Shown here: in pieces, positions 6,841 to 63,706 of the stretch
How the letters are laid out: each line of letters begins with the position of its first letter
Position numbering within the stretch: the stretch's first letter is position 1
Source of the DNA: Candidatus Krumholzibacteriota bacterium
Lineage (GTDB): Bacteria; Krumholzibacteriota; Krumholzibacteriia; Krumholzibacteriales; WJIX01
Assembly: GCA_034520215.1 (NCBI GenBank)
Contig: JAXHNR010000002.1
Location: 656,642 to 720,641, forward strand
Length of the DNA: 64,000 nucleotides
Reading direction: 5' to 3'
Translations under genes and position numbers: made by a program
Notes under the pieces: generated by a model
The model's database searches: none
Seen by the model: the letters and a program-made list of their open reading frames with translations, nothing else
What the model was told of the DNA's origin: nothing

Positions 6841-9800
6841 TTGATTGTTATCGATAAATTCAAAATTCATTATCGAACAAAAAACAGATTTGTCCCCGCC
6901 TGGATTCTCACCGTTTCTTTTATCCTGCTTTTTATCTGTCCCTATGAGCTTACGGCACAATCGCTGGAAGTGGATTTGCTCGAAATGCGTGAAAAGACCG
7001 AAGTTTATTTACACGAAATTGAGAAGGGAGAATTGCCCCTTGATTACATGAAACTCGGACTCAGCAGGAGAAGATCATTTATTAAAGAAGCCGAAGAACC
7101 CACAAAACTGATCAGAGAATATGATGAAGGGACCGGGCTGTTCTTTGAGTTCAGCGTTCCTAATGACTATTCCTTTATCAGCAGAGAGAGGAGAAAAAGG
7201 GGATTTATTTATTATTCTCAGAGAGATATGAAAATTCCGGGGATCGATATTAATATCTATTCACTGAAGGAAAGAGCTGAATATTTGGGAGATAGGGCTT
7301 TCCGTGAGGTTTGGAAAGAGAATATTCTATACAATCTCGGTATAGACAGAGAAGAAAGTCATAAAAGCGGAATGCTGGATATTGATATACCAATCGATCT
7401 TCCTAAACAGATAGAGTGGTTTATTGGCGAAGGTGAAGAGACGAATCTCTCTATTTCAGGAAGGGAAGAGATTACAATTGGAGGTGATTCGAGATGGTGC
7501 AGCAACTGTCCTCGAACCGAAGGTATGCCGGAACCGCAGAAATTCCCCGACCTTGATATGCAGCAGAAATTGTCAGTCAATCTTCATGGAACTATCGGAG
7601 AGAAGATAAGAGTCGCGATAAACCATTCGAGTCAGGGGGATGGAATGCAGTCTGTCAATCAGGTAAGAGTGCATTATCAGGGTTTTGAGGATGATATTAT
7701 AAAGTTGATTGAAATGGGAGACACCGACATGACTCTGCGGGGAGCCCAGATGATTCGTTATTCAGGATCCGCTAAGGGCTTGTTCGGAGTGAAGGTTAAG
7801 GGTCAGGTCGGGCCGGTGGATCTGACGCTGATCGCGAGTAAGGAAAAGGGAGAAACTGCCTCCGGCACATTTTCGTCAGGCGGAGGTCAGAGCAGTGAAA
7901 ACGTGATCGCGGATTATGGTTTTATAAAACGTCAGTTTTTCTATCTGGAAAATCCCGGCTCTGATTTTTCAAATACCGGCAGAGTTTATCCCAAAATAGA
8001 CGCTGAAGACAGTCTGGAAGTCTTTATCGAACTAAACCCGGCCGTTGAATGGACCGGGGACGAACCGAGATGTTACCTCGAAGCTTATCCCGATTCGGGC
8101 AATGACGGAATCGATACAACAGTTACGGCCTGGGGTTCCTGGTACAGGGTGCTCACTGAAGGCGAGGATTATCAACTGATTCAGGATTATTACAATGAAG
8201 ATGAAGGGATAAAATATATGGGGATATATCTAAACCGTCCCCTTCCGAACGATAAGGCTCTTGCTGTCAGATATATTAATAACGAGGGCGATACAATAGG
8301 CGATTACGGAGCCGGCTTTGAAAATTACGGAGGAGACAGGCCCCCGGATGATCATTTAACTTTTAAAGCGGAGTTAATTTGCCCGCAAAAAGCTGATTTC
8401 AGTCCCGCACAATCGGACTTTCCTTCTACCTGGAACATGATGATGAGAAACATATACTCGCTTAATATGAGCAACATCAGTAAAGGAAGTCTGAAAGTAA
8501 CAATTGAAAGTGTGGAAAAAATACAGGGGAGCAGGGATATTCATGAAGAAACCCAGATCAGCTATCTCCGGATCTTCGGATTAGATCAGTACGATGTAAC
8601 GGGACAGAAAAATCCCGACGGCAGAGTGGATGACCGCCAGGGTGTTATAGATTACAGAAATGGTTTCTTAATGTTTCCCTGGGATGAACCATTCAAAACA
8701 CCTGAAGCTGTTTTAAGGAGCTATTTATCAGATTCAGTGGCGGCTGTAGTTGACACATCTCTCACCCGGAATACATCTATATACGATGATCTGATAACCC
8801 CCAATGAACCCCCGCCGCATTACTATGATATCGTAATAGAAGGTTCAAGCGGACAGAAAACGATTCGGCTTAATGCCTTTAATATAATTGAAGGCAGTGA
8901 AGTTGTTCGGATTGGAGGCGTGAAATTCTCGAAGGGGACCGATTATGAAATTGATTATATGTCGGGTATAGTAACTCTCAAGGGAGAGGCTCTCAACACA
9001 CTTCAGAGTGATCCGGGCGCTAAGATCAATATTGACTATCAGAAAGAACCCCTGGTGGGGGGAGGGAAGAGCTCTTTGATCGGGATAGGAGCGAATTACG
9101 ATATTTCCCCCGACGCGCGTCTGAACGCGGCATTTCTTTACAATTCAAGCGGCGCGAGCCGGTATAAACCGAATCTGGGTGAAGAGCCGAGCAGAAACAT
9201 GGCGGCTGATATTAACGGAAGTTTTGTCTTCAGACCTTCCTGGATGACTTCCCTGGTTAATTTATTGCCGAGAGTCGATACAGATAAGGAAAGTCAATTG
9301 AACGTTGGCGGCGAGGTGGCGCTCAGCATCCCTAACCCCAACACTAAAGGAAATGCCTATATTGATAATATGGAAGGGATAGAGGATAGTAACAGGCTTA
9401 CTTTAGTACGTAACGTATGGAAACCGGCTTCTCCTCCCCTTCATCCGGAAAACCCGAATGACACTCTTGCTCCCGTCCCTCAGGATGTCGAATTTTATTG
9501 GTATAATCCCGCGACAACCGATGAGCAGGAACATCTTGTAACAAGTAAAAAGGATCTGAATCCCCAGATCGATGACAGGGAAAATACAAGAGTAACATCA
9601 CTCTTCCTAAAGACAATTAACACGGATGGATCACCGGAAAATCAATGGAGCGGCATAATGTCAGGGTTTATGGGGGGGCTGGATCTTTCCAACGCTCAGT
9701 ATCTGGAAATTTGGGTAAATGATTTCACTGAAGATGAGGCTTTAAGAGGCGGAACTGTTCATATTGATTTCGGTGAGATAGATGAAGACTATTATTTACC

Positions 9801-12800
9801 GTATGAAAACCTGTTAAATGATGAAAACCCCTATAACTGGACAGCGATGGAAAATGATTTTGGTTTCACGGGAGACAACCAGAACCGTATTTACCCGACC
9901 GCGTTTGACGAGTCACACTATAATGAGGAAAAAGGAGTTTACGAGTGGATAAATTCGCGCGTGAAAAATTCCTTTCATGACAGTGAAGATATGAACGGCA
10001 ACAACAGACTTGACACTAAGAATAATTATTATTCACTAAAGTTTAATCTGGCCGATTCGGCTATGATCGATGTCAAAAGGGATTTTAATGGGATAGAAGG
10101 AAGTAAATCCTGGAGAATGTACCGTATCGATCTGTCAAAAGCGGAGCTGTTTGGAATGAAGCCGCGGCTGGATGCCATTGAACAAATGAGAATATGGGTT
10201 GAAAATGTAGATTCAGTACAAACGGGAGGAGATCAGCATACACTGGAACTTGCCGGTCTGAAGTTTGTGGGGAACAAATGGCGTTATGACAATATTCGTG
10301 ATCTGAAGGGGAGTATACTGCCGGTTGGTTCCGCCCCGGGGATGAGGGTGAAGGCGGGAACGATGAATAATAAAGACAACCCTTCACTTTACCAGTCGCC
10401 GTATGACGTAGAAGAGGAAGATGGGATTGATATCAGAGAACAATCTCTTACTTTTGAAGTTGAGAATTTTGCCGACAGCACATCATTTCAGTTTTCAAAA
10501 AGATTCTACGGAGACGGGAAAAACTTCGGGCAGTATAAGGGCATTGAATTCTATTATCATCTGGACAGCAAGATAGTAAGTGACCCAGCTGACAGTGTGG
10601 AGTTCTTTCTCCAGATCGCCTATGACAGTCTCAATTATTACGAAATAGGGGTTCCCATTGATTACCTCACGCCAGTCGGTTGGAATCACGTTTTCGTTAA
10701 CTTGAGTGACCTGACGAATTTGAAGATCGGCGCGTCCGGCAATTTTGTGGAAGGACTGATTGAGGACAGCCGTTCAACAGGAAAGAAATACTGGGGCAGA
10801 CTGAAGGGAAAACCTTCTTTATTCAAAGTCCGTCGTTTTTATGTGGGGCTCAGAAATAGAACAGACGAAGTAATTACGGAAACAAGGTTTATGCTGAACG
10901 ATATAACTTTAACTGATGTGCGGAAAGATATTGATTTTGCCGCCAGAACCACTTTTTCTGCCAATCTGGGGGGCGGCATTTTCTCCTTGAATGGTAATTG
11001 GGAGAGGAGCGGGCCTGAATTCCGCTCCCTGCAGCAGAAGAGGGGAAGTGGAGTCAGCAGAACATCTCTGTCTTTATCAGGAAACAGTAAGCTGGAGCAT
11101 TTTATTCCCACGGGAGGATTTAATATTCCGGTGTCCTTACGTTATAACAGCAGGGTCTCAAAGCCTAAATATATGACTCAGAGCGATGTGGAAATTACCG
11201 ATGATTCTGTACGTGACAGCCTTGTGAGTGCTTCGAAAAGTTATGGGTTTAATTTGAAACTCAGCAGGAACGGGTCTTCGAATTTCATTATGAAACATTT
11301 CTTCGATAATTTGAATTTGGGTTATAATTATTCTAAAAAATCGAGCTACACACCAATCTCAAGTGATACATCCTGGTCTATGAGCGGGACGATGAATTAT
11401 AGTCTTCAGTTCGGGAAAGATAGAACGGTCGACTTATTCGGGTTAAAATGGCGTTACTGGCTTACTAACATATCAATAAATTCAAGGGCAAGCAGAGTCA
11501 CGCGTAATTCCTATTCAGAGTCGGGCAGAAGACCCTCTACTTACGATTGTGATTGGTCTAATGATCTTTCAATGTCCTATGATCCCTTCGAGTCAGTAAA
11601 AATAGGTTACCAGAGGAGTGAAAGCCGTGATATGGGCGTGGATCATGATTTTCACGGCGTCCCTATCGGGATGCTGAGAAATTTCAATCAGAGTATGTCG
11701 ATTGATTTCAGACCTAGAAACAAAATCCCCATTCTCTCCGAGTTCAGTCCCTCGTTTCAGTACAAGACCGGTTATTCGGAAAACCTCAGCGGTGTAAGAA
11801 GAGCCGGGGACCCTCCCGGAACGAGGAATGTCACCTCTAATAGATCGATAAATATCAATCTGGATTTTGATGTCGGCAGTTACGCAAATGATTTCAAAGG
11901 ATATATTGAGCATTTCGGCGAGAAGGAAGAAAAGAAGAAGATTGTCGAATCTGAAGAGAAGGATGAAGAAAAAAGTAAAGTGGATTTTATTATTTTGATA
12001 GAGGAGAAATATCTAAGAAGAAATTTGACTGAGGAGGAAAGGAGATTTTTATTTGAGTTCGACACTTTCCCCGTAGAAACTGATTCAGAAACAGACTATC
12101 TGAAACTTCTTCCAATAACCAGGCGGAATTCCAGCGGGGGGGTGGAGAGGAAAGATGAATCCGTGTCCGAACCGGGCAAGAGTGAAGAAGAGGAAGGTGA
12201 AAATAAGGATAAACTAATCATAGTAAAGAAATTTCTCGGTCTGATTGGAAGAGTAAGTCCCGTTAACGCCAGGCTCGATCTAACAAAAAGAACTTCCTAC
12301 CAGCATCTTTATGAGCGCGCGGCGGTTGGTTATCAATTGGGAATAACCGATTACAGCGGAGCTTTGGGAAGTGACGGGGAGGAAGAAAAAGTTCCGGTAT
12401 CATTGACAAACAGGCTTTCTCTGAATATGGACACAAAGGTTGAAGTAACTTCTGATGTAAATCTTGATATAGGGTACCGTCTAACCGGCGATTTCAAAGA
12501 AACAAACGGCCGGGAGAGAGAGACCACGGATCTACTGTGGCCGAAGATCGGCGTCAGCTGGACAGGCCTCGAAAAATGGGGGATTATAGAGAAATTTATA
12601 GAATCCAGCATGCTTAACGTAAATTTTACACGCAGGTTTTCAGTTAGTGAAACCTATGAAAAGACATCTTATAAGGTTTCTCCAAACTGGACTCTCATGT
12701 GGAAAAACAGTCTTTATTCAACGATATCGATGAGTTATTCCCAGGAAAACAGGAATGTGAAAAATCAGGAGATGTGGGATAGAACATGGGCAGCCAGCAT

Positions 12801-13101
12801 TAACCTTAAATATGATTTCAGCGGCAAGGAGGGATTCGGCTTTCCACTTCCGTTTATCGGAGGCAAGAAGATAAAATTCAAAAGTAAATTGACTTCGAAT
12901 CTCAACATATCATATTCTGAGAAGGAAAGTTATAACAATCCCAAAATGTCCACGTTGAAGGTGGCGCCTATGTTTACCTATGGATTCAGCCAGGCTGTAA
13001 CTGGGAATTTATCGATGAATTATTCCCGTTCATCGGGCGGAATTTACGGTTATATTCATCAGCAGGTTGGTGTTCATGCGACAGCTAACATTGAATTCTA
13101 A
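6841..13101 (+). CDS. sprA: SprA-like giant outer-membrane protein (type IX secretion translocon family)
   Basis: SprA (Sov) is the very large beta-barrel translocon of the type IX secretion system. This 2086-residue protein starts at a TTG preceded by GAGAG, has a signal peptide ending near TAQS, and carries SprA-like segments: the early CSNCPRTEG, the MGDTDMTLRGAQMIRYSG / GLFGVKVKG region near residues 295-325, and GNAYIDNMEGIEDSNR near residues 838-853, equivalent to the conserved YIDDFEG of SprA. Alternating beta strands continue to an aromatic last strand ending in F. A highly charged stretch at about residues 1697-1800 is unusual for a barrel. The window holds likely clients at 58-63 kb. 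Family assignment is good; function as a working translocon is inference. Confidence 0.87.
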   Translation: MIVIDKFKIHYRTKNRFVPAWILTVSFILLFICPYELTAQSLEVDLLEMREKTEVYLHEIEKGELPLDYMKLGLSRRRSFIKEAEEPTKLIREYDEGTGLFFEFSVPNDYSFISRERRKRGFIYYSQRDMKIPGIDINIYSLKERAEYLGDRAFREVWKENILYNLGIDREESHKSGMLDIDIPIDLPKQIEWFIGEGEETNLSISGREEITIGGDSRWCSNCPRTEGMPEPQKFPDLDMQQKLSVNLHGTIGEKIRVAINHSSQGDGMQSVNQVRVHYQGFEDDIIKLIEMGDTDMTLRGAQMIRYSGSAKGLFGVKVKGQVGPVDLTLIASKEKGETASGTFSSGGGQSSENVIADYGFIKRQFFYLENPGSDFSNTGRVYPKIDAEDSLEVFIELNPAVEWTGDEPRCYLEAYPDSGNDGIDTTVTAWGSWYRVLTEGEDYQLIQDYYNEDEGIKYMGIYLNRPLPNDKALAVRYINNEGDTIGDYGAGFENYGGDRPPDDHLTFKAELICPQKADFSPAQSDFPSTWNMMMRNIYSLNMSNISKGSLKVTIESVEKIQGSRDIHEETQISYLRIFGLDQYDVTGQKNPDGRVDDRQGVIDYRNGFLMFPWDEPFKTPEAVLRSYLSDSVAAVVDTSLTRNTSIYDDLITPNEPPPHYYDIVIEGSSGQKTIRLNAFNIIEGSEVVRIGGVKFSKGTDYEIDYMSGIVTLKGEALNTLQSDPGAKINIDYQKEPLVGGGKSSLIGIGANYDISPDARLNAAFLYNSSGASRYKPNLGEEPSRNMAADINGSFVFRPSWMTSLVNLLPRVDTDKESQLNVGGEVALSIPNPNTKGNAYIDNMEGIEDSNRLTLVRNVWKPASPPLHPENPNDTLAPVPQDVEFYWYNPATTDEQEHLVTSKKDLNPQIDDRENTRVTSLFLKTINTDGSPENQWSGIMSGFMGGLDLSNAQYLEIWVNDFTEDEALRGGTVHIDFGEIDEDYYLPYENLLNDENPYNWTAMENDFGFTGDNQNRIYPTAFDESHYNEEKGVYEWINSRVKNSFHDSEDMNGNNRLDTKNNYYSLKFNLADSAMIDVKRDFNGIEGSKSWRMYRIDLSKAELFGMKPRLDAIEQMRIWVENVDSVQTGGDQHTLELAGLKFVGNKWRYDNIRDLKGSILPVGSAPGMRVKAGTMNNKDNPSLYQSPYDVEEEDGIDIREQSLTFEVENFADSTSFQFSKRFYGDGKNFGQYKGIEFYYHLDSKIVSDPADSVEFFLQIAYDSLNYYEIGVPIDYLTPVGWNHVFVNLSDLTNLKIGASGNFVEGLIEDSRSTGKKYWGRLKGKPSLFKVRRFYVGLRNRTDEVITETRFMLNDITLTDVRKDIDFAARTTFSANLGGGIFSLNGNWERSGPEFRSLQQKRGSGVSRTSLSLSGNSKLEHFIPTGGFNIPVSLRYNSRVSKPKYMTQSDVEITDDSVRDSLVSASKSYGFNLKLSRNGSSNFIMKHFFDNLNLGYNYSKKSSYTPISSDTSWSMSGTMNYSLQFGKDRTVDLFGLKWRYWLTNISINSRASRVTRNSYSESGRRPSTYDCDWSNDLSMSYDPFESVKIGYQRSESRDMGVDHDFHGVPIGMLRNFNQSMSIDFRPRNKIPILSEFSPSFQYKTGYSENLSGVRRAGDPPGTRNVTSNRSININLDFDVGSYANDFKGYIEHFGEKEEKKKIVESEEKDEEKSKVDFIILIEEKYLRRNLTEEERRFLFEFDTFPVETDSETDYLKLLPITRRNSSGGVERKDESVSEPGKSEEEEGENKDKLIIVKKFLGLIGRVSPVNARLDLTKRTSYQHLYERAAVGYQLGITDYSGALGSDGEEEKVPVSLTNRLSLNMDTKVEVTSDVNLDIGYRLTGDFKETNGRERETTDLLWPKIGVSWTGLEKWGIIEKFIESSMLNVNFTRRFSVSETYEKTSYKVSPNWTLMWKNSLYSTISMSYSQENRNVKNQEMWDRTWAASINLKYDFSGKEGFGFPLPFIGGKKIKFKSKLTSNLNISYSEKESYNNPKMSTLKVAPMFTYGFSQAVTGNLSMNYSRSSGGIYGYIHQQVGVHATANIEF

Positions 13102-57024: not shown

Positions 57025-57744
57025 TTATCTGTAGAGCTGTTTTACAGCTCCCCATGTGGATTCTTCTGCAGCGACCGCTCCGCAGGTAATAGAAGCGTCG
57101 ATGCAGCAGGCGTCGAAAAGCTCGCCGTCGGTTGCTCCGCATAGAAAATCGGGATAGTCAGCGGGTTTTGGTTCTCCGCTGGTGCTTTCCCAGACCATCA
57201 GCGCGTTTGAGATAACAAAGTCGAGCGCGCAGTCGTAGCAATCCATCTCGTCGAAGTTTCCAGTGAAGTAAACGTTGGATGTTTTTCCGACGGGCTGTCC
57301 TCCTTCGTAGCTGACTCTGGTGCTTACGTTGTAATAGTTCAGATAACCCGTATAGTCCATCGAGCCGTCGCCCCACGGACCGGTGGAGGCCAGCCAGAAG
57401 TAGCCGCCCGTGTAATTCGTCGAGTAGTCGATCCAGCCGTTTCCGTTTTCGTCAAAGTATCTCGCGGTTTCCACAGCGCCGTTTTCGTCTATCTCCATTC
57501 CCCAGACGTGCCACTGGGTCATGAGTGTTGAGCCGTCCCAGGATTGAGCGTCCTGAGTGTTTCCCGGGTATCCGGGGCCCATTCCGGCGCAGTTTGCCTC
57601 TGAGACGCGTCCTCCCAGAAGATCTCCTCCATTGGTGGTATAATTTCCGTCAGGATTATTCGCGCCTTCGCAGTCCTGGGCCAAAACGGGCCAGGCGAAT
57701 AACAGTGTCAAAGCAATAATGAACGTCATTTTCAAAAATTTCAT
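57025..57744 (-). CDS. Secreted protein with C-terminal W-G-x-x-K-x-x-Y tail
   Basis: A protein of 239 residues with a signal peptide ending PVLAQ and a strong GGAGGGG ribosome site. The mature part is rich in G, D, N, Y and W with DENGNGWIDYSTN-like turns that resemble calcium-binding loops, and has paired cysteines (MDCYDCALDF; FDACCIDASITCG). It matches no family I can name. The last residues, EESTWGAVKQLYR, resemble the end of the next protein, which ends in ENTSWGRLKSSYIK. The conserved W-G-x-x-K-x-x-Y at the extreme C-terminus suggests a sorting or anchoring signal. First in position but last transcribed of the minus-strand secreted set. Confidence 0.6.
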   Translation of the reverse strand: MKFLKMTFIIALTLLFAWPVLAQDCEGANNPDGNYTTNGGDLLGGRVSEANCAGMGPGYPGNTQDAQSWDGSTLMTQWHVWGMEIDENGAVETARYFDENGNGWIDYSTNYTGGYFWLASTGPWGDGSMDYTGYLNYYNVSTRVSYEGGQPVGKTSNVYFTGNFDEMDCYDCALDFVISNALMVWESTSGEPKPADYPDFLCGATDGELFDACCIDASITCGAVAAEESTWGAVKQLYR

Positions 57745-57816
57745 TTTACCCCTCCGATTTTTTTGAATCCAGTTCCTTTACGTAATTTACGTTAACAATT
57801 TAAATTATCTCTTTTA

Positions 57817-57827
57817 ATCACCTCCTT
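57817..57827 (-). promoter_or_regulatory. Orphan perfect Shine-Dalgarno sequence
   Basis: On the minus strand AAGGAGGTGAT matches the full anti-Shine-Dalgarno end of 16S rRNA, yet no start codon with an open frame follows within normal spacing; the next gene begins 83 bases further on. It could be left from a lost short gene, or regulate the secreted-protein gene as a ribosome standby site. Confidence 0.35.
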
Positions 57828-57871
57828 GCCTGGTTCTTCAAAAGTACTCCGTCAAAGAATAAACCCTCATC

Positions 57872-58420
57872 CTATTTTATATAACTAGACTTCAATCTTC
57901 CCCAAGAGGTATTTTCAGCCCCTATCTCTGTGATAATCGAGACCTCCCCCCCTTTGGCATCGTGCCCTATACCATCATTATTGCCGTCCCTCAGGTCGGA
58001 ATAAGTAATTCCTATGTTTGTAGTACCTGACTTTAAGGCTTTAAAACTGATGGATAATAAATCCCCTGGCGTCTCAATCTCGGCACCCAGTATCGCTCCA
58101 CTTACCGACATTATATCACAGGACGGCTCAATTTGCCAATAAAAAAAGGTTTCTTCTCCTGAACCTGAAGGAAGCTCACCCTCGGAGCAGCCGGTAATCT
58201 CAAGATATTCCGGATCGAATAAAAGTCTAACGTCATAGCCCATAAAATCTAATGTATCCGGACCGGCGTGGACTTTTATTTCGAATTCGCAGTTTATGTC
58301 CACCTGTGTGGTGTCCGGCTGTATCGAGAGTGTCAATCCAGCCCTGACCGCGAGGGGGGTTCCGAGGAAGATTGCTAATATAACCGATGCTAATAATAAT
58401 TGCTTTATGTCGAACTTCAT
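57872..58420 (-). CDS. Secreted cohesin-like-domain protein with W-G tail
   Basis: A protein of 182 residues starting at ATG 58420 with GGAG six bases upstream. The signal peptide is followed by a single cohesin-like domain: LSIQPDTTQVDINCEFEIKV, MGYDVRLLFDPEYLEITGC, GDLLSISFKAL and TNIGITYSDLRDGNNDGI, with two cysteines. Cohesin folds bind dockerins in cellulosomes, and similar domains occur in FCB secreted proteins without cellulosomes. The end ENTSWGRLKSSYIK shares a W-G-x-x-K-x-x-Y pattern with the neighbouring secreted protein. It lies 17 bases after the next gene's stop, so it is co-transcribed. Confidence 0.68.
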   Translation of the reverse strand: MKFDIKQLLLASVILAIFLGTPLAVRAGLTLSIQPDTTQVDINCEFEIKVHAGPDTLDFMGYDVRLLFDPEYLEITGCSEGELPSGSGEETFFYWQIEPSCDIMSVSGAILGAEIETPGDLLSISFKALKSGTTNIGITYSDLRDGNNDGIGHDAKGGEVSIITEIGAENTSWGRLKSSYIK

Positions 58421-58437
58421 CGAAACTCCAATCATTG

Positions 58438-59307
58438 TTATCTAACCAAAATCAGCTTTTGAGTAAAAAGAGCGCCGTCGGCCTTCAAGGCAGCGATATA
58501 AAGGCCTGCTGATACGATTTTTCCACTGTTATCTTTTCCTTTCCAGACGAATTCATTTTTTCCTCTGTTAAGCCTTCCCCTGTAAAGGTCCCTGATGATT
58601 CTTCCAGAAGGCGAATAGATCCTAAGCTCTCCGGATGACGCTAAAGGGTTTTCCCCGTCCGAATTTTGGAAGGTAATCCTGGTAAGAGGATTAAAAGGAT
58701 TGGGCCTGCATGTGAAGCTGCCGGTCGGGAAGATTATTTTATCTACTCCGGTGACTTCTCCAATATAGATATCGACGGGAATTCCGGGAACCGTGCCGAC
58801 AGGGTCCCGGTCAATATCATGTAGCGTGGCGGAATCGACTTCCGCCCATGACCAACCATCCGACTTTCCCTCGAAGACCAATTCGAACAGCTCTCCCGGC
58901 GCCAGAATGTAGCTCCGGTATCCCAGCACGCAGTTGCTGACCATCACTCTGCCCGGGTAGAGAACCTCCCAATCGAAGAAAGTTGAAAAAGAGGTTTCAC
59001 TGTATAACGCTCCCTCCCCCGCAGAGACGATTTCCAGCATAGTACTGTCGTAAGTAATCTCGCAATACGCGCAGCTGAGAGAATCAGTTCCCTGATCCAC
59101 CATCACGCTGAGAGTGCATCTTTCACCCTGTAGTATACGGGAAGAATCGGGCAGGAGGTAGACGGTCGAACTGGAAGATTCCGCTGGGCCGCTGACAATG
59201 CTGCCACATTCCGCGTCCGGGAAACTGTATGCTGTAACCAAAAACAACGTTCCAAACACCAGCGAGAGGCCGAATAACCGGAATCTGATTTTAATACTCG
59301 AGTTCAT
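58438..59307 (-). CDS. Secreted cohesin-like protein with T9SS-type C-terminal domain
   Basis: A 289-residue protein with a signal peptide, a cohesin-like domain (about 45-180; LLPDSSRILQGERCTLSVMV, CAYCEITYDSTMLEIVSAG, LFELVFEGKSDGWSWAEV) and a FlgD-Ig/T9SS type A C-terminal domain: RPNPFNPLTRITF near 212, then ELRIYSPSGRIIRDL, FVWKGKDNSGKIVSAGLYIA and LTQKLILVR-like ending. Such C-terminal domains direct export through the type IX system and are cut off and replaced by an anchor. The client status fits the SprA-like gene at 6.8 kb. A GGAAGAAGAAC ribosome site precedes the start. Confidence 0.8.
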   Translation of the reverse strand: MNSSIKIRFRLFGLSLVFGTLFLVTAYSFPDAECGSIVSGPAESSSSTVYLLPDSSRILQGERCTLSVMVDQGTDSLSCAYCEITYDSTMLEIVSAGEGALYSETSFSTFFDWEVLYPGRVMVSNCVLGYRSYILAPGELFELVFEGKSDGWSWAEVDSATLHDIDRDPVGTVPGIPVDIYIGEVTGVDKIIFPTGSFTCRPNPFNPLTRITFQNSDGENPLASSGELRIYSPSGRIIRDLYRGRLNRGKNEFVWKGKDNSGKIVSAGLYIAALKADGALFTQKLILVR

Positions 59308-59377: not shown

Positions 59378-62300
59378 TTAACGAAGAAGAATCATCTTTC
59401 TGGTGGCCGAGAAGCCGCTGCTGTCGATTCTGTAGAAGTACACTCCGCTTGGTACGGATTCATTTCTGTTATTGAGTCCGTTCCATTCTATGGTGTGCCT
59501 TCCAGCGGTTCTGATTTCATCCACCAGAGTTTTGATAAGCCGTCCGTTCACGTCAAAGATCCTCAGGTTGACCCTTCCGGCCCTTACGATATCAAAGGTT
59601 ACTGAAGTAACCGGGTTGAACGGATTGGGATAATTCTGCATCAGGGCGTTAGAGGTGGGCATGAACGGAGCCTCGAATTCTCCTTCAAGTTCCACATGTG
59701 TGCCCCTGTTCTCCAGGTCTCTTAGATCCGCGCTCAGCATCTTCAGTGAAGCCGAACCGCCCGATACCACGACCCTGGCTACTTCGCCCGACTGGCTGAT
59801 GGGAAGGTTTATTCCCAATGCCGCCGCGTCTATTTCGACAGAGCCGTTGTCTGTTCTCATGGTTCCAAAGAAAAGATCATTGCCGCCTTCAAAGATCTCA
59901 CCTCTCTGGACGCTCAGAATCCTGCCTCCGTCTCCAGAGCTTAAATGGATGCTGAAGCCCTTGAGAGTCTCGGCGTCATTGTCGATTCTAAGCGACAGTA
60001 CCGTTCCATTCTGGTCAGAGTCTTGCTTCTCAAGGCTGAAGGCAACCTTACTCTCCAGAGGTTCGGGAATGGTCCCGGCCAGGAGCCTGGTGCTACCCAG
60101 GGCGTCCACCTTGCCGTAGATCATGGCGAAGATCATCAGATCCTCGAAATCAACCACATCATCCGGAAGAGGGATTCCGTAACTGGAATTGTCATAGGTG
60201 GGACCGAAGTCACACTCATTGTTCCAGCCGGGATCTCCATCCGATTCCCCGAAAGCCGGTGAGAAATCGACCAGGTCGGTATAATTAACATAGCCGTCAT
60301 AGGGCGAGGCTACATCGCCGAGCCAGTAGCTGGTAGCCCTGTCGGAGCCGTCGGCGTCATAGGCTGAATAGTTACCGGCCAGGTCATAGCTTAAACCGGT
60401 ATAGTAGTAAATGTCTCTTCCCGCCGTTACGGAGTTGTCATACGCTTCAGCGGAAGTTTGAGCGATTAAAACACCTTCTGTCTCATCGGCAGGGTAGTTG
60501 GGCGCGGTGATGTACTCGGGATAATCTCCCCACGCAGCCCTTCTGAGCTCAACGCCGACGAAGGTAGCGTCGCCGGTAGGATTGGTCCAGGACAAGTGGA
60601 CCTTGTTGTTACCCGGCGCGGCCGCGAATGCGGTTGGCGGTTCGGGAGGAGTAGTGTCCTTGTTGAACTGCCAGCTGTAGGTGTCCGGAGTACTCTCGCC
60701 GTTCCAGTTGCCGGCGTCGTCAGCCACCCTGAAGTATACGGTGTGGCTTCCCTCGCTCAGCCCGGAGAATCCGGGGAGGGTCCATCCGTCATCATTCCAT
60801 TCGGTAGCGTCAATGCCGCTGAATATGGTGGTCCAGCTGCCGCCATCTATCTGATACTCGGCAACGTCGAGGTTTACGTCGTCATCGAAGCCGAAGTTGC
60901 TGAAAACCGGAGCGGAGTTGTACCAGCCGCCTTCCGCTTCAGCTATCGTTTCCATGGTGGGAACGGTGCAGTCTACCTGTACGGAAGCCCCTTCTGTTGA
61001 AGCGGACATGTCGTTGTTGTCCAGGTCTCTCACTTTCACACCTGTAATGGTTATAGCGCTGGTTCCTTCCGCCACCGGAGTAAGTTCAACACTGAAAAGG
61101 TCACCGCTGCCGGTTGCTCCGGTATCTCCGCCCAGAATAGCGCAGTTGGCAGTGTAAGCTCCGCCGCCTTCATCAGTGGCGTAGAAACTGCCGTCGCCGA
61201 AAGAATCCAGAAAGGAGCCCTCCACTATATCAGTGCCGTCGTCCTGTACCGTCACTACCGCCGGATCTATGGTGAATGTCACCTCATAGCCGCGTACCTC
61301 TTTGGGCACGTCAGTCCCGTCATAGAGGAATGTGAAGGTCAGCGGATCGGAACAGGTGGTTACCGCATAGACGGGGGATACGCTGATTCCCGGCTCGATA
61401 AACGGATCGAACAGAATGCGGTCGCTTACCTCGTCTCCAAGCCCGTCCGAATTGAGTGTGGGGTGATAAGGCCCGCTGGAATGCCCCCACCAGTTGTTGG
61501 TGGCGTCCACTGTGATATAGTCGACATTGGAGAACATTCCCATGGTGTTGCCGCTGATATTATTATAATGGGCGTCACCGCTGGCGAAAAGTCCCGTCCC
61601 GCAGCCGCTCTGGCAGGACCAGAACTCTATTCCGGTACCGAATCCGGTTACCGTGTTGCTGTCCGCCACCGCTGTGATATTGTCCGCGTCGTAGCCGGCT
61701 TCCAGGGATACGCCGTAAGTATCGGTGTTATCCGTTCCGCTGAACACTATAACATTGGAGTTTACGGTGGAATTGACATCCGCCGCGGCAGCGCTGTAGA
61801 TCTCTCTCGAGCTGCCCAGAGCGCCGTCTTCCCCGCTGAATGGTGACGGCACCAGATGCGGAGGATCCGCGGTCACCACTCCGTAGGCGTATACTCCGAT
61901 CTTCTCGATGGTCAGGTCGTTCTCGCGGACAGGGCCTCTGCCGAAGTAGTGGTAGATTGCCATGTGGGCGCCGGTGATGGTGTTACCGGTTACCTCAGCA
62001 TCGCCTAAATAATTAAGAATGCTAGTCGCGCACCATTTGGTGGCCGCCGCTGTATTATCATAAGCTATTCCGGATATCTCGTTTCCGGATATGGTACCGG
62101 TTATCATTTCACCGTAAAGCTGAATCCCGTTCTGTGCCGTGACATCGGTCGCTCCCGCTCCGGTGATAACGTTTCCGGCAACCTCCACGGTCAGTTCCGT
62201 GGTGGAGGAAGCGTTAAGGGCCACGGCGTTCTTCTGGAATCCTGTAAAGGTGCTGCTGTACAGGCCGAATTCACGGGCTACCGAATCTTCATTGTACAGA

Positions 62301-63706
62301 TACATGGCCACGCCGTGCTGGGCTCCGCTGAAGGGCGTGTCCTTTACGTCCTTGAATTCTACTTCGTTGACGTATCCACCGGCATTGTGATAGCCCACAC
62401 CGATAAAGTTGTTATTGCTATTTCCCCTGCCGGCTCCGTCGACTACCAGGCCGTCTATGATCACCTCATCCGCGTCGTGGGCATAGACGATAGGGTAATT
62501 ATCGCCGCTGGTGGTAAAAAACTGGGTAAGTGTTTCTGGGGAAACAATAACGGTATTGGAATAATTTCCATACATTCGAAGCGATTTGTCGATCTCCACC
62601 TGTTCTTCATAGGTGCCCGCACCGCTGTATATGGCGATCCACACCAGCGACTTATAGGAACTTACCGGCACCGCGTCCACGGCTTCCTGAATGGTGTCAT
62701 ACCATTCGGCCCAGTGGGCCGTGGGGTTTCCCTTGACTATGAAGTCAAGCCGGACATCGTCGCCGTCGATATCGAAAAAGGTGTTTCCCGACAGCGACAC
62801 AGTCGAGTTTCCCACCATGATTCCGTATCCACAGTTATGGATGTCGTTATTGGTGACCGACGGGGTTCCTCCGTTCCACAGGTCCATTCCCGATGAGGCC
62901 CAGTTGGTCTGGTTGGCCCCCGAAAGGCAGTCATAGATATGGTTTCCCGTGATTGTGGGATTTCCGTAGTAACAGGATATTCCATAGTTGATCCGGTCGG
63001 GGTCGGCGCCTCCCAGGCCGGTTACGGTGTTTCCGGATATGACGCCGGTATCGTTGTTGAGGATGTTCTCATCCCTGGTATAGATACCGATCCGGCCGAA
63101 TCCGTAAATATCGTTATTGGTTACGTAGATCTGGCTGTCCTCTCTCCGCACCGCCAGGCCGGCGGCACCCGGATAAGCGATATTCTTGATCTCATTGTCA
63201 TGGATATCTCCGTCCGTACCGCTGTCGGCGTAGACGCCGTACTGTATATCCTTCCCGGTACCGTCGACGGTGAATCCGGAGAAATCGACCGTGGCGGAGC
63301 CGGTTATGTGCACGATGTGAGTAGTAACAGCTGTCGTCCCGGTTATTATGGAAAGTCCTGAGCCCGCTCCCTGAATGGTCAGGTCCTTGCCGTTGACGGT
63401 GATCGCTTCCGGGTACGTTCCTGAGGCAACCACTATCACGTCGCCCGACAGGGCGACGTCTACGGCCGCCTGTATGGTGGCGTAATCGCCCGGCACATTA
63501 AGTGTCGCCGCGACGATGCCGGTTGGAGCCCGTTGAATCGACTTATCGGAAGGACTCTGGCTAGTGAGCATTTGACTTTCCGATAAGAATGGCTCTGCTG
63601 GTTTCGGTTTCTCCGCGTTATCTTCACCGCTGGCCGCGAGGCAGGGTGAGAGTGGCAAGGCGATGAGAAAAAAGAGAAGTGCAAACATTGTTCGTCGATA
63701 ATTCAT
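59378..63706 (-). CDS. Giant secreted beta-helix protein with cohesin-like, dockerin-like and T9SS C-terminal domains
   Basis: A 1442-residue secreted protein. After the signal peptide come right-handed beta-helix repeats (about 60-760; DFSGFTVDGTGKDIQYGVYA, NTVTGLGG-type turns), a cohesin-like domain (about 775-905), an Ig/FN3-like pair (to about 1130), a dockerin-like double motif (GDVASPYDGYVNYTDLVDF near 1132 and DDVVDFEDLMIFAMIYG near 1175), a second cohesin-like part (about 1200-1340), and a T9SS type A C-terminal domain (NYPNPFNPVTSVTF near 1355; VYFYRIDSSGFSATRKMILLR end). It probably binds or degrades a polysaccharide at the surface; no catalytic triad of a lyase is obvious. AGGAGGGGAC precedes the ATG. 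Confidence 0.85.
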   Translation of the reverse strand: MNYRRTMFALLFFLIALPLSPCLAASGEDNAEKPKPAEPFLSESQMLTSQSPSDKSIQRAPTGIVAATLNVPGDYATIQAAVDVALSGDVIVVASGTYPEAITVNGKDLTIQGAGSGLSIITGTTAVTTHIVHITGSATVDFSGFTVDGTGKDIQYGVYADSGTDGDIHDNEIKNIAYPGAAGLAVRREDSQIYVTNNDIYGFGRIGIYTRDENILNNDTGVISGNTVTGLGGADPDRINYGISCYYGNPTITGNHIYDCLSGANQTNWASSGMDLWNGGTPSVTNNDIHNCGYGIMVGNSTVSLSGNTFFDIDGDDVRLDFIVKGNPTAHWAEWYDTIQEAVDAVPVSSYKSLVWIAIYSGAGTYEEQVEIDKSLRMYGNYSNTVIVSPETLTQFFTTSGDNYPIVYAHDADEVIIDGLVVDGAGRGNSNNNFIGVGYHNAGGYVNEVEFKDVKDTPFSGAQHGVAMYLYNEDSVAREFGLYSSTFTGFQKNAVALNASSTTELTVEVAGNVITGAGATDVTAQNGIQLYGEMITGTISGNEISGIAYDNTAAATKWCATSILNYLGDAEVTGNTITGAHMAIYHYFGRGPVRENDLTIEKIGVYAYGVVTADPPHLVPSPFSGEDGALGSSREIYSAAAADVNSTVNSNVIVFSGTDNTDTYGVSLEAGYDADNITAVADSNTVTGFGTGIEFWSCQSGCGTGLFASGDAHYNNISGNTMGMFSNVDYITVDATNNWWGHSSGPYHPTLNSDGLGDEVSDRILFDPFIEPGISVSPVYAVTTCSDPLTFTFLYDGTDVPKEVRGYEVTFTIDPAVVTVQDDGTDIVEGSFLDSFGDGSFYATDEGGGAYTANCAILGGDTGATGSGDLFSVELTPVAEGTSAITITGVKVRDLDNNDMSASTEGASVQVDCTVPTMETIAEAEGGWYNSAPVFSNFGFDDDVNLDVAEYQIDGGSWTTIFSGIDATEWNDDGWTLPGFSGLSEGSHTVYFRVADDAGNWNGESTPDTYSWQFNKDTTPPEPPTAFAAAPGNNKVHLSWTNPTGDATFVGVELRRAAWGDYPEYITAPNYPADETEGVLIAQTSAEAYDNSVTAGRDIYYYTGLSYDLAGNYSAYDADGSDRATSYWLGDVASPYDGYVNYTDLVDFSPAFGESDGDPGWNNECDFGPTYDNSSYGIPLPDDVVDFEDLMIFAMIYGKVDALGSTRLLAGTIPEPLESKVAFSLEKQDSDQNGTVLSLRIDNDAETLKGFSIHLSSGDGGRILSVQRGEIFEGGNDLFFGTMRTDNGSVEIDAAALGINLPISQSGEVARVVVSGGSASLKMLSADLRDLENRGTHVELEGEFEAPFMPTSNALMQNYPNPFNPVTSVTFDIVRAGRVNLRIFDVNGRLIKTLVDEIRTAGRHTIEWNGLNNRNESVPSGVYFYRIDSSGFSATRKMILLR

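Follow-up and report, generated by a model that had tools for sequence, protein, structure and literature searches.

In the LPXTG/sortase, PEP-CTERM/exosortase, GlyGly-CTERM/rhombosortase and MYXO-CTERM/myxosortase systems, a short motif is found only at the C-terminus of many unrelated exported proteins, where it is accompanied by a transmembrane helix and a basic cluster. The beta-signal of the BAM machinery is a short C-terminal peptide with aromatic residues that is read at the outer membrane. The sortase-type signals obey a many-to-one logic (PMC3237569), and by the single-target logic of Haft and Varghese (PMC3237569) a signal with a single client should expose its dedicated partner. The C-terminal domains (CTDs) of the type IX secretion system (T9SS), including type A (TIGR04183/PF18962), type B (CHU_C, PF13585) and FlgD_ig (PF13860), measure about 75-80 residues and adopt an Ig-like beta-sandwich. 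In P. gingivalis the very C-terminus of the CTD was found essential for export (PMC4804311, PMC11285876), and its last 22 residues, which carry the export signal, can suffice for the export of GFP (PMC4804311).

The C-terminal tail described here is of the sorting-signal kind but is without the features that define the tested classes, namely a transmembrane helix, a CTD fold or a lipobox, and it was filed as a member of none. Like the sortase-type tags, it is a short motif that ends many unrelated exported proteins, but it has neither a hydrophobic segment nor a known enzyme. It is short, C-terminal and aromatic as the beta-signal is, whereas the proteins that bear it are soluble and of many folds, its last residue is R or K and not F or W, and in two models it lies outside the confident fold and contributes no strand to the body. 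With T9SS CTDs it shares the C-terminal position, the occurrence on signal-peptide proteins of the same genomes, homologous bodies and a basic final residue; it differs in its length of about 9-20 residues, in lacking the beta-sandwich and any HMM match, and in its near-invariant W and K. Pfam and NCBIfam hold no model for the tail, and the open-access journal papers searched contain neither a description of it nor a report of Krumholzibacteria with a T9SS. From sequence comparisons, the tail resembles an undescribed miniature address label that would move proteins to the cell surface.

The window, a stretch of 64,000 nucleotides from a Candidatus Krumholzibacteriota genome (contig JAXHNR010000002.1 of assembly GCA_034520215.1), contains two adjacent open reading frames on the minus strand whose products end in EESTWGAVKQLYR and ENTSWGRLKSSYIK, as the initial annotation had reported. 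Protein 1 (57025-57744) is a secreted protein of 239 aa with an all-beta body of no known family, a signal peptide MKFLKMTFIIALTLLFAWPVLA encoded at 57679-57744, recognized from the sequence and by an in-house heuristic scorer, and the tail at 57028-57066. Protein 2 (57872-58435), of 187 aa, or 182 aa if the ATG at 58420 is the start, carries a cohesin domain (PF00963, E=1.7e-6, residues 36-147) and the tail at 57875-57916. BLASTP between the two bodies returned only short chance alignments with E of at least 0.37; this bears out the earlier claim that the bodies are unrelated and rules out paralogy of the pair. The N-terminal signal peptides claimed for both proteins were confirmed by the scorer, and the two T9SS-CTD neighbours claimed beside them were confirmed by FlgD_ig and T9SS matches. 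Both neighbours lie upstream of the pair on the minus strand. The nearer (58438-59307) is a cohesin protein with a body homologous to that of protein 2, no WG tail and a type A/FlgD-Ig CTD at 58441-58704, which matches FlgD_ig at E=2.4e-7 and TIGR04183 at E=5.7e-4, just under the cut-off; the other (59378-63706) is a secreted protein of 1442 aa with a type A CTD above the cut-offs of PF18962 and TIGR04183. Neither tagged protein of the window matches TIGR04183, PF18962, PF13585 or PF13860. SprA, the T9SS outer-membrane translocon, is encoded on the plus strand at 6841-13101, with TIGR04189 above its cut-off at contig positions 664847-668275. The two CTDs, at 58441-58704 and 59381-59632, end in aromatic-[ST]-x-x-[RK]-K-M-I-L-L-R, loosely like W-G-x-I-K-S-L-Y-R, a likeness that may be due to chance.

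The body of protein 1 has no match in Pfam or NCBIfam, and homologues were found in 44 of 78 genomes of the phylum. Its AF2 model shows a confident all-beta fold (body pLDDT >90) without a counterpart among PDB folds at E<0.001 (best E = 0.03), and the tail was predicted as a short, low-confidence helix at residues 231-238. Among 38 homologue rows the tail W is conserved in 97%, K in 100%, G in 84% and Y in 82%, against a linker mean of 44%. Since most homologues were retrieved by whole-protein search, the rows are largely unselected for the tail, although a few came from tag searches and the protein itself is present three times.

Enrichment of the terminal motif among signal-peptide proteins, a check proposed by the initial annotation, was found in the genome of origin (2.6 Mb, two contigs), which was searched with a DNA pattern for W-G-x2-K-x2-Y that requires no stop codon. 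Eleven of the 15 matches lay no more than 12 residues from a protein end, the remaining four being two short non-genic frames and two internal sites, judged by eye to lie in ribosomal protein S6 and a tyrosine recombinase. By the heuristic scorer, used in place of SignalP, all eleven terminally tagged proteins have signal peptides, versus 42 of 195 background genes taken from twelve arbitrary 20-kb stretches of the same genome (Fisher p = 1.4e-7). None of the sampled genes of this genome placed the tail on a non-secreted protein. The motif was neither at random frequency on the ends of secreted proteins nor shared by a pair of full-length paralogues, the two outcomes that the initial annotation had named as refuting it.

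A consensus of P-[VT]-P-[TV]-E-x-[TS]-[ST]-W-G-x-I-K-S-[LIM]-Y-R-COOH was derived from 189 distinct tails, with a core of nine residues, W-G-x-I-K-S-L-Y-R, and often a cysteine 9-11 residues ahead of the W; synonymous codons are free to vary within it. A signal peptide was detected in 152 of 159 complete tagged open reading frames and a lipobox-like sequence in only 8, too few for a class of lipoproteins. None of the 159 has a C-terminal transmembrane or hydrophobic segment, and none has the T9SS CTD pattern, so that tail and CTD never occur on one protein; T9SS families are likewise absent from those listed for 101 tagged proteins. The bodies fall into about 69 clusters among 154 and include right-handed beta helix, lamin-tail domain (LTD), ExeM-type nuclease, choice-of-anchor E and V, TQXA/thioester domain (TED), cohesin, LamG, glucose/sorbosone dehydrogenase and phosphoesterase, as assigned by Pfam and NCBIfam. 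Several such domains occur elsewhere with sortase, PEP-CTERM, GlyGly or T9SS signals. In the AlphaFold model of a tagged OB protein from Cloacimonadota, the body is confident and the tail is coil with pLDDT < 50; a linear motif would look like this in a model, and the weak modelling fits one without proving it. Clusters of tandem WG-tailed small proteins were observed in the genome of origin (L255:11977-18358) and in L119, L158 and L151, with membership partly confirmed for the last two. Those of L255 and L119 include a cysteine-rich protein, dockerin-like by eye, and a Pfam-confirmed C25 peptidase of about 1370 aa with FlgD_ig at its end.

The reach of the tail was counted with a pattern that requires a stop shortly after the tyrosine, the reversed pattern serving as the control. 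Krumholzibacteriota gave 594 matches against 4 reversed (77 of 80 genomes), and Eisenbacteria 387 against 0 (42 of 47 genomes). These controls rule out a chance origin, and with 69 body clusters and a window pair that is not homologous, the idea that chance or full-length paralogy accounts for the shared tail has practically nothing left to recommend it. Many genomes hold 5-36 tagged proteins, and the counts are underestimates because variants of the form W[GSTA]x[ILV]Kxx[YFH] occur. In Cloacimonadota the tail was found in 54 of 99 genomes, typically on about one orthologous protein per genome, and in Zixibacteria it was at chance level (27 matches, 27 reversed). A stricter GTDB-wide scan yielded at least 117 stretches, almost all from Eisenbacteria, Krumholzibacteriota, Latescibacterota, Cloacimonadota or unnamed bacteria, with a few from Gemmatimonadota and no Bacteroidota label among the matches listed. 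Found phylum-wide, on secreted proteins with some 69 unrelated bodies, and exchanged with the T9SS CTD as described below, the tail strongly supports the initial view that it looks like a sorting signal.

The exchange was most extensively observed on a tandem-OB secreted protein of Cloacimonadota, about 215 residues long, which continues from the same boundary either into a WG tail of about 20 residues or into about 100 residues of linker and T9SS type A CTD. Across distinct bodies, 36 WG-tailed and 11 CTD-tailed rows are syntenic and share the same conserved neighbour gene. This gene, for a small membrane protein, adjoins 29 of the 30 WG-tailed loci retrieved and is present in 11 of 20 CTD-tailed stretches, which identifies the CTD-tailed copies as occupants of that locus elsewhere. 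The tree of the OB protein calls for about three switches between C-terminal types; it has long branches, and some placements are unsure. Within the window, the WG-tailed cohesin at 57872-58435 and the CTD-tailed cohesin at 58438-59307 are homologous (28% over 127 residues), and both endings were seen at related cohesin loci of other genomes. At the same loci the median open reading frame length is 238 for WG-tailed and 334 for CTD proteins, the CTD sample being small and partly chosen. Since tail and CTD exchange on matching proteins, the tail behaves as a modular C-terminal signal able to replace the T9SS CTD. The strongest sign that both do the same kind of job is that, at a given locus, one and the same protein ends either in the tail or in a signal known to direct export across the outer membrane. 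Judged from sequence comparisons, the WG tail and the T9SS CTD are very probably interchangeable as C-terminal sorting signals. A fold search with the tandem-OB protein gave weak tandem-OB/HIN-like matches. Its conserved two-gene locus (L092:3779-4899 and equivalents) pairs it with a membrane protein of about 125 aa with an acidic C-terminus, whichever C-terminal signal is present.

This exchange also bears on two readings that involve no transport. The tail could be a docking or retention peptide, binding a periplasmic or surface partner to assemble an envelope complex; the tail is short and amphipathic and follows a flexible linker, and some tagged genes cluster with those for cohesin- and dockerin-like proteins. 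This is improbable, since on syntenic orthologues the tail exchanges with a transport signal and since the tagged bodies are too diverse for one complex. Less probable still, to the point of being hard to credit, is that the tail marks proteins for degradation or quality control by a periplasmic protease, or is a maturation site that is just cut off: the peptide is exposed and unfolded as such a tag would be, but it is strongly conserved on varied structural and enzymatic secreted proteins, it is exchanged for the T9SS CTD, and none of the protease families examined follows its distribution.

The best overall explanation, to which we lean slightly, is that proteins exported by Sec are sorted by the tail as a modular signal, with the T9SS as its likeliest receptor. 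The tail is terminal, restricted to signal-peptide proteins, modular, swapped with the CTD and co-occurrent with SprA; the receptor, translocation and any cleavage or anchoring are inferred. The proposed signal would consist of a flexible linker of about 8 residues followed by [ST]-W-[G/small]-x-[ILV]-K-x-x-[Y/aromatic]-[RK], and would do, mainly for small single-domain proteins, the job that falls to the T9SS CTD of about 80 residues on other proteins of these genomes. A Sec signal peptide would bring the protein into the periplasm, where the body would fold and leave the tail exposed. A periplasm-facing receptor at the outer membrane may then bind the tail, folded into a short helix or a strand, with W, I/L and Y on one face together with K and the terminal R/K, after which the protein would be handed across the outer membrane. 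The likeliest receptor would be the T9SS itself (SprA with a PorV-type shuttle), for which the tail would be a minimal cargo signal.

SprA was found in 66 of 67 tag-bearing genomes and in all 41 of good quality, which makes reading by the T9SS the preferred mechanism. A short T9SS signal is plausible given that a 22-residue CTD end can export GFP, and the single client of Cloacimonadota, which has no tail-specific neighbour, points to pre-existing machinery. Against this reading, the tail resembles the last CTD strand only loosely in sequence, and it was modelled weakly as helix in one protein and as coil in the other, unlike the beta strand formed by the C-terminal motif of T9SS cargo. A perfect tail, possibly by chance, was found in one archaeal genome that has no SprA. 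Among Zixibacteria, the single genome tested has SprA, and the PorU and PorV families are present too, yet WG tails are absent at the phylum level, so possession of a T9SS is not enough to predict that the tail is used. The copy numbers of PorV and PorU do not follow the tag. Weighing these points, the chance that the T9SS reads the tail is put at about even or slightly better.

Several candidates for a reader or a link were tried and rejected. The PorU and PorV families were present in the 31 genomes tested, with no difference in copy number between tag-rich and tag-less genomes, so that an expansion of PorV or PorU does not track the tag. The membrane-protein neighbour of about 125 aa in Cloacimonadota, considered as a dedicated reader, also flanks CTD-tailed orthologues (11 loci) besides WG-tailed ones (36). 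The C25 peptidase neighbour is real at a few loci and not general. Co-variation of the terminal residue between tail and T9SS terminus, with K in both in Cloacimonadota and mostly R elsewhere, is confounded by K/R usage and rests on few CTDs.

The initial annotation had regarded the tail as separate from type IX sorting. As a signal it does differ from the T9SS CTD, but its separation from type IX sorting was not supported: SprA is in 41 of 41 good-quality genomes, tail and CTD replace each other at the same locus, and the T9SS may read the tail. It is possible, though rather unlikely, that an undescribed sorting system exists, in which a lineage-specific receptor or transpeptidase anchors or exports tailed proteins independently of the T9SS. 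The tag is heavy in Krumholzibacteriota and Eisenbacteria and absent from T9SS-bearing Zixibacteria, tail and CTD are never together in 159 proteins, and a peptidase of family C25 (that of PorU and the gingipains), itself ending in a T9SS CTD, adjoins the tandem tagged genes of L255 and L119, which would suit such a system. However, no tag-tracking gene was found among those examined, the C25 gene stands beside few tagged loci and Pfam on 99 neighbours gave nothing general, while the conserved neighbour in Cloacimonadota flanks CTD-tailed orthologues too. It is similarly doubtful that Krumholzibacteriota and Eisenbacteria run a pathway parallel to the T9SS in which a nine-residue tag, through its own receptor or transpeptidase, sends small secreted proteins, up to dozens in number, to the surface. 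As for anchoring by a dedicated protease or ligase, also suggested at the outset, no such enzyme turned up among the families and neighbours examined: PorU and PorV copy numbers do not follow the tag, the presence of PorU in every genome tested makes it uninformative, and most neighbouring genes are unrelated to one another.

The tail offers a simple sequence rule by which proteins that are exported or reach the surface could be predicted in several phyla that are scarcely or not at all represented in culture, and whose secreted proteins are mostly unannotated. If the T9SS reads it, the tail would be a T9SS signal found in nature at a fraction of the size of the known CTD; it would make directly testable which part of the CTD the translocon recognizes, and would be of use for protein display. 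If another reader does, a second outer-membrane sorting system remains to be found.

Minor observations concern single records. Two paralogues of a tagged family (L119:1555-2762) end in WGAIKSMMD and WGAIKSMME, natural tail variants in which the tyrosine is absent. On a Woesearchaeota contig (L133:3208-3963), from the archaeal genome without SprA, a LamG-type protein with a signal-like N-terminus ends in TSWGKIKSLYR; it is a single match in a phylum where the tail is at chance level, and may reflect chance, contamination or transfer. A record labelled Fibrobacter sp. IMS_BF shares its contig coordinates with a genome from the class to which the window belongs and is probably mislabelled.
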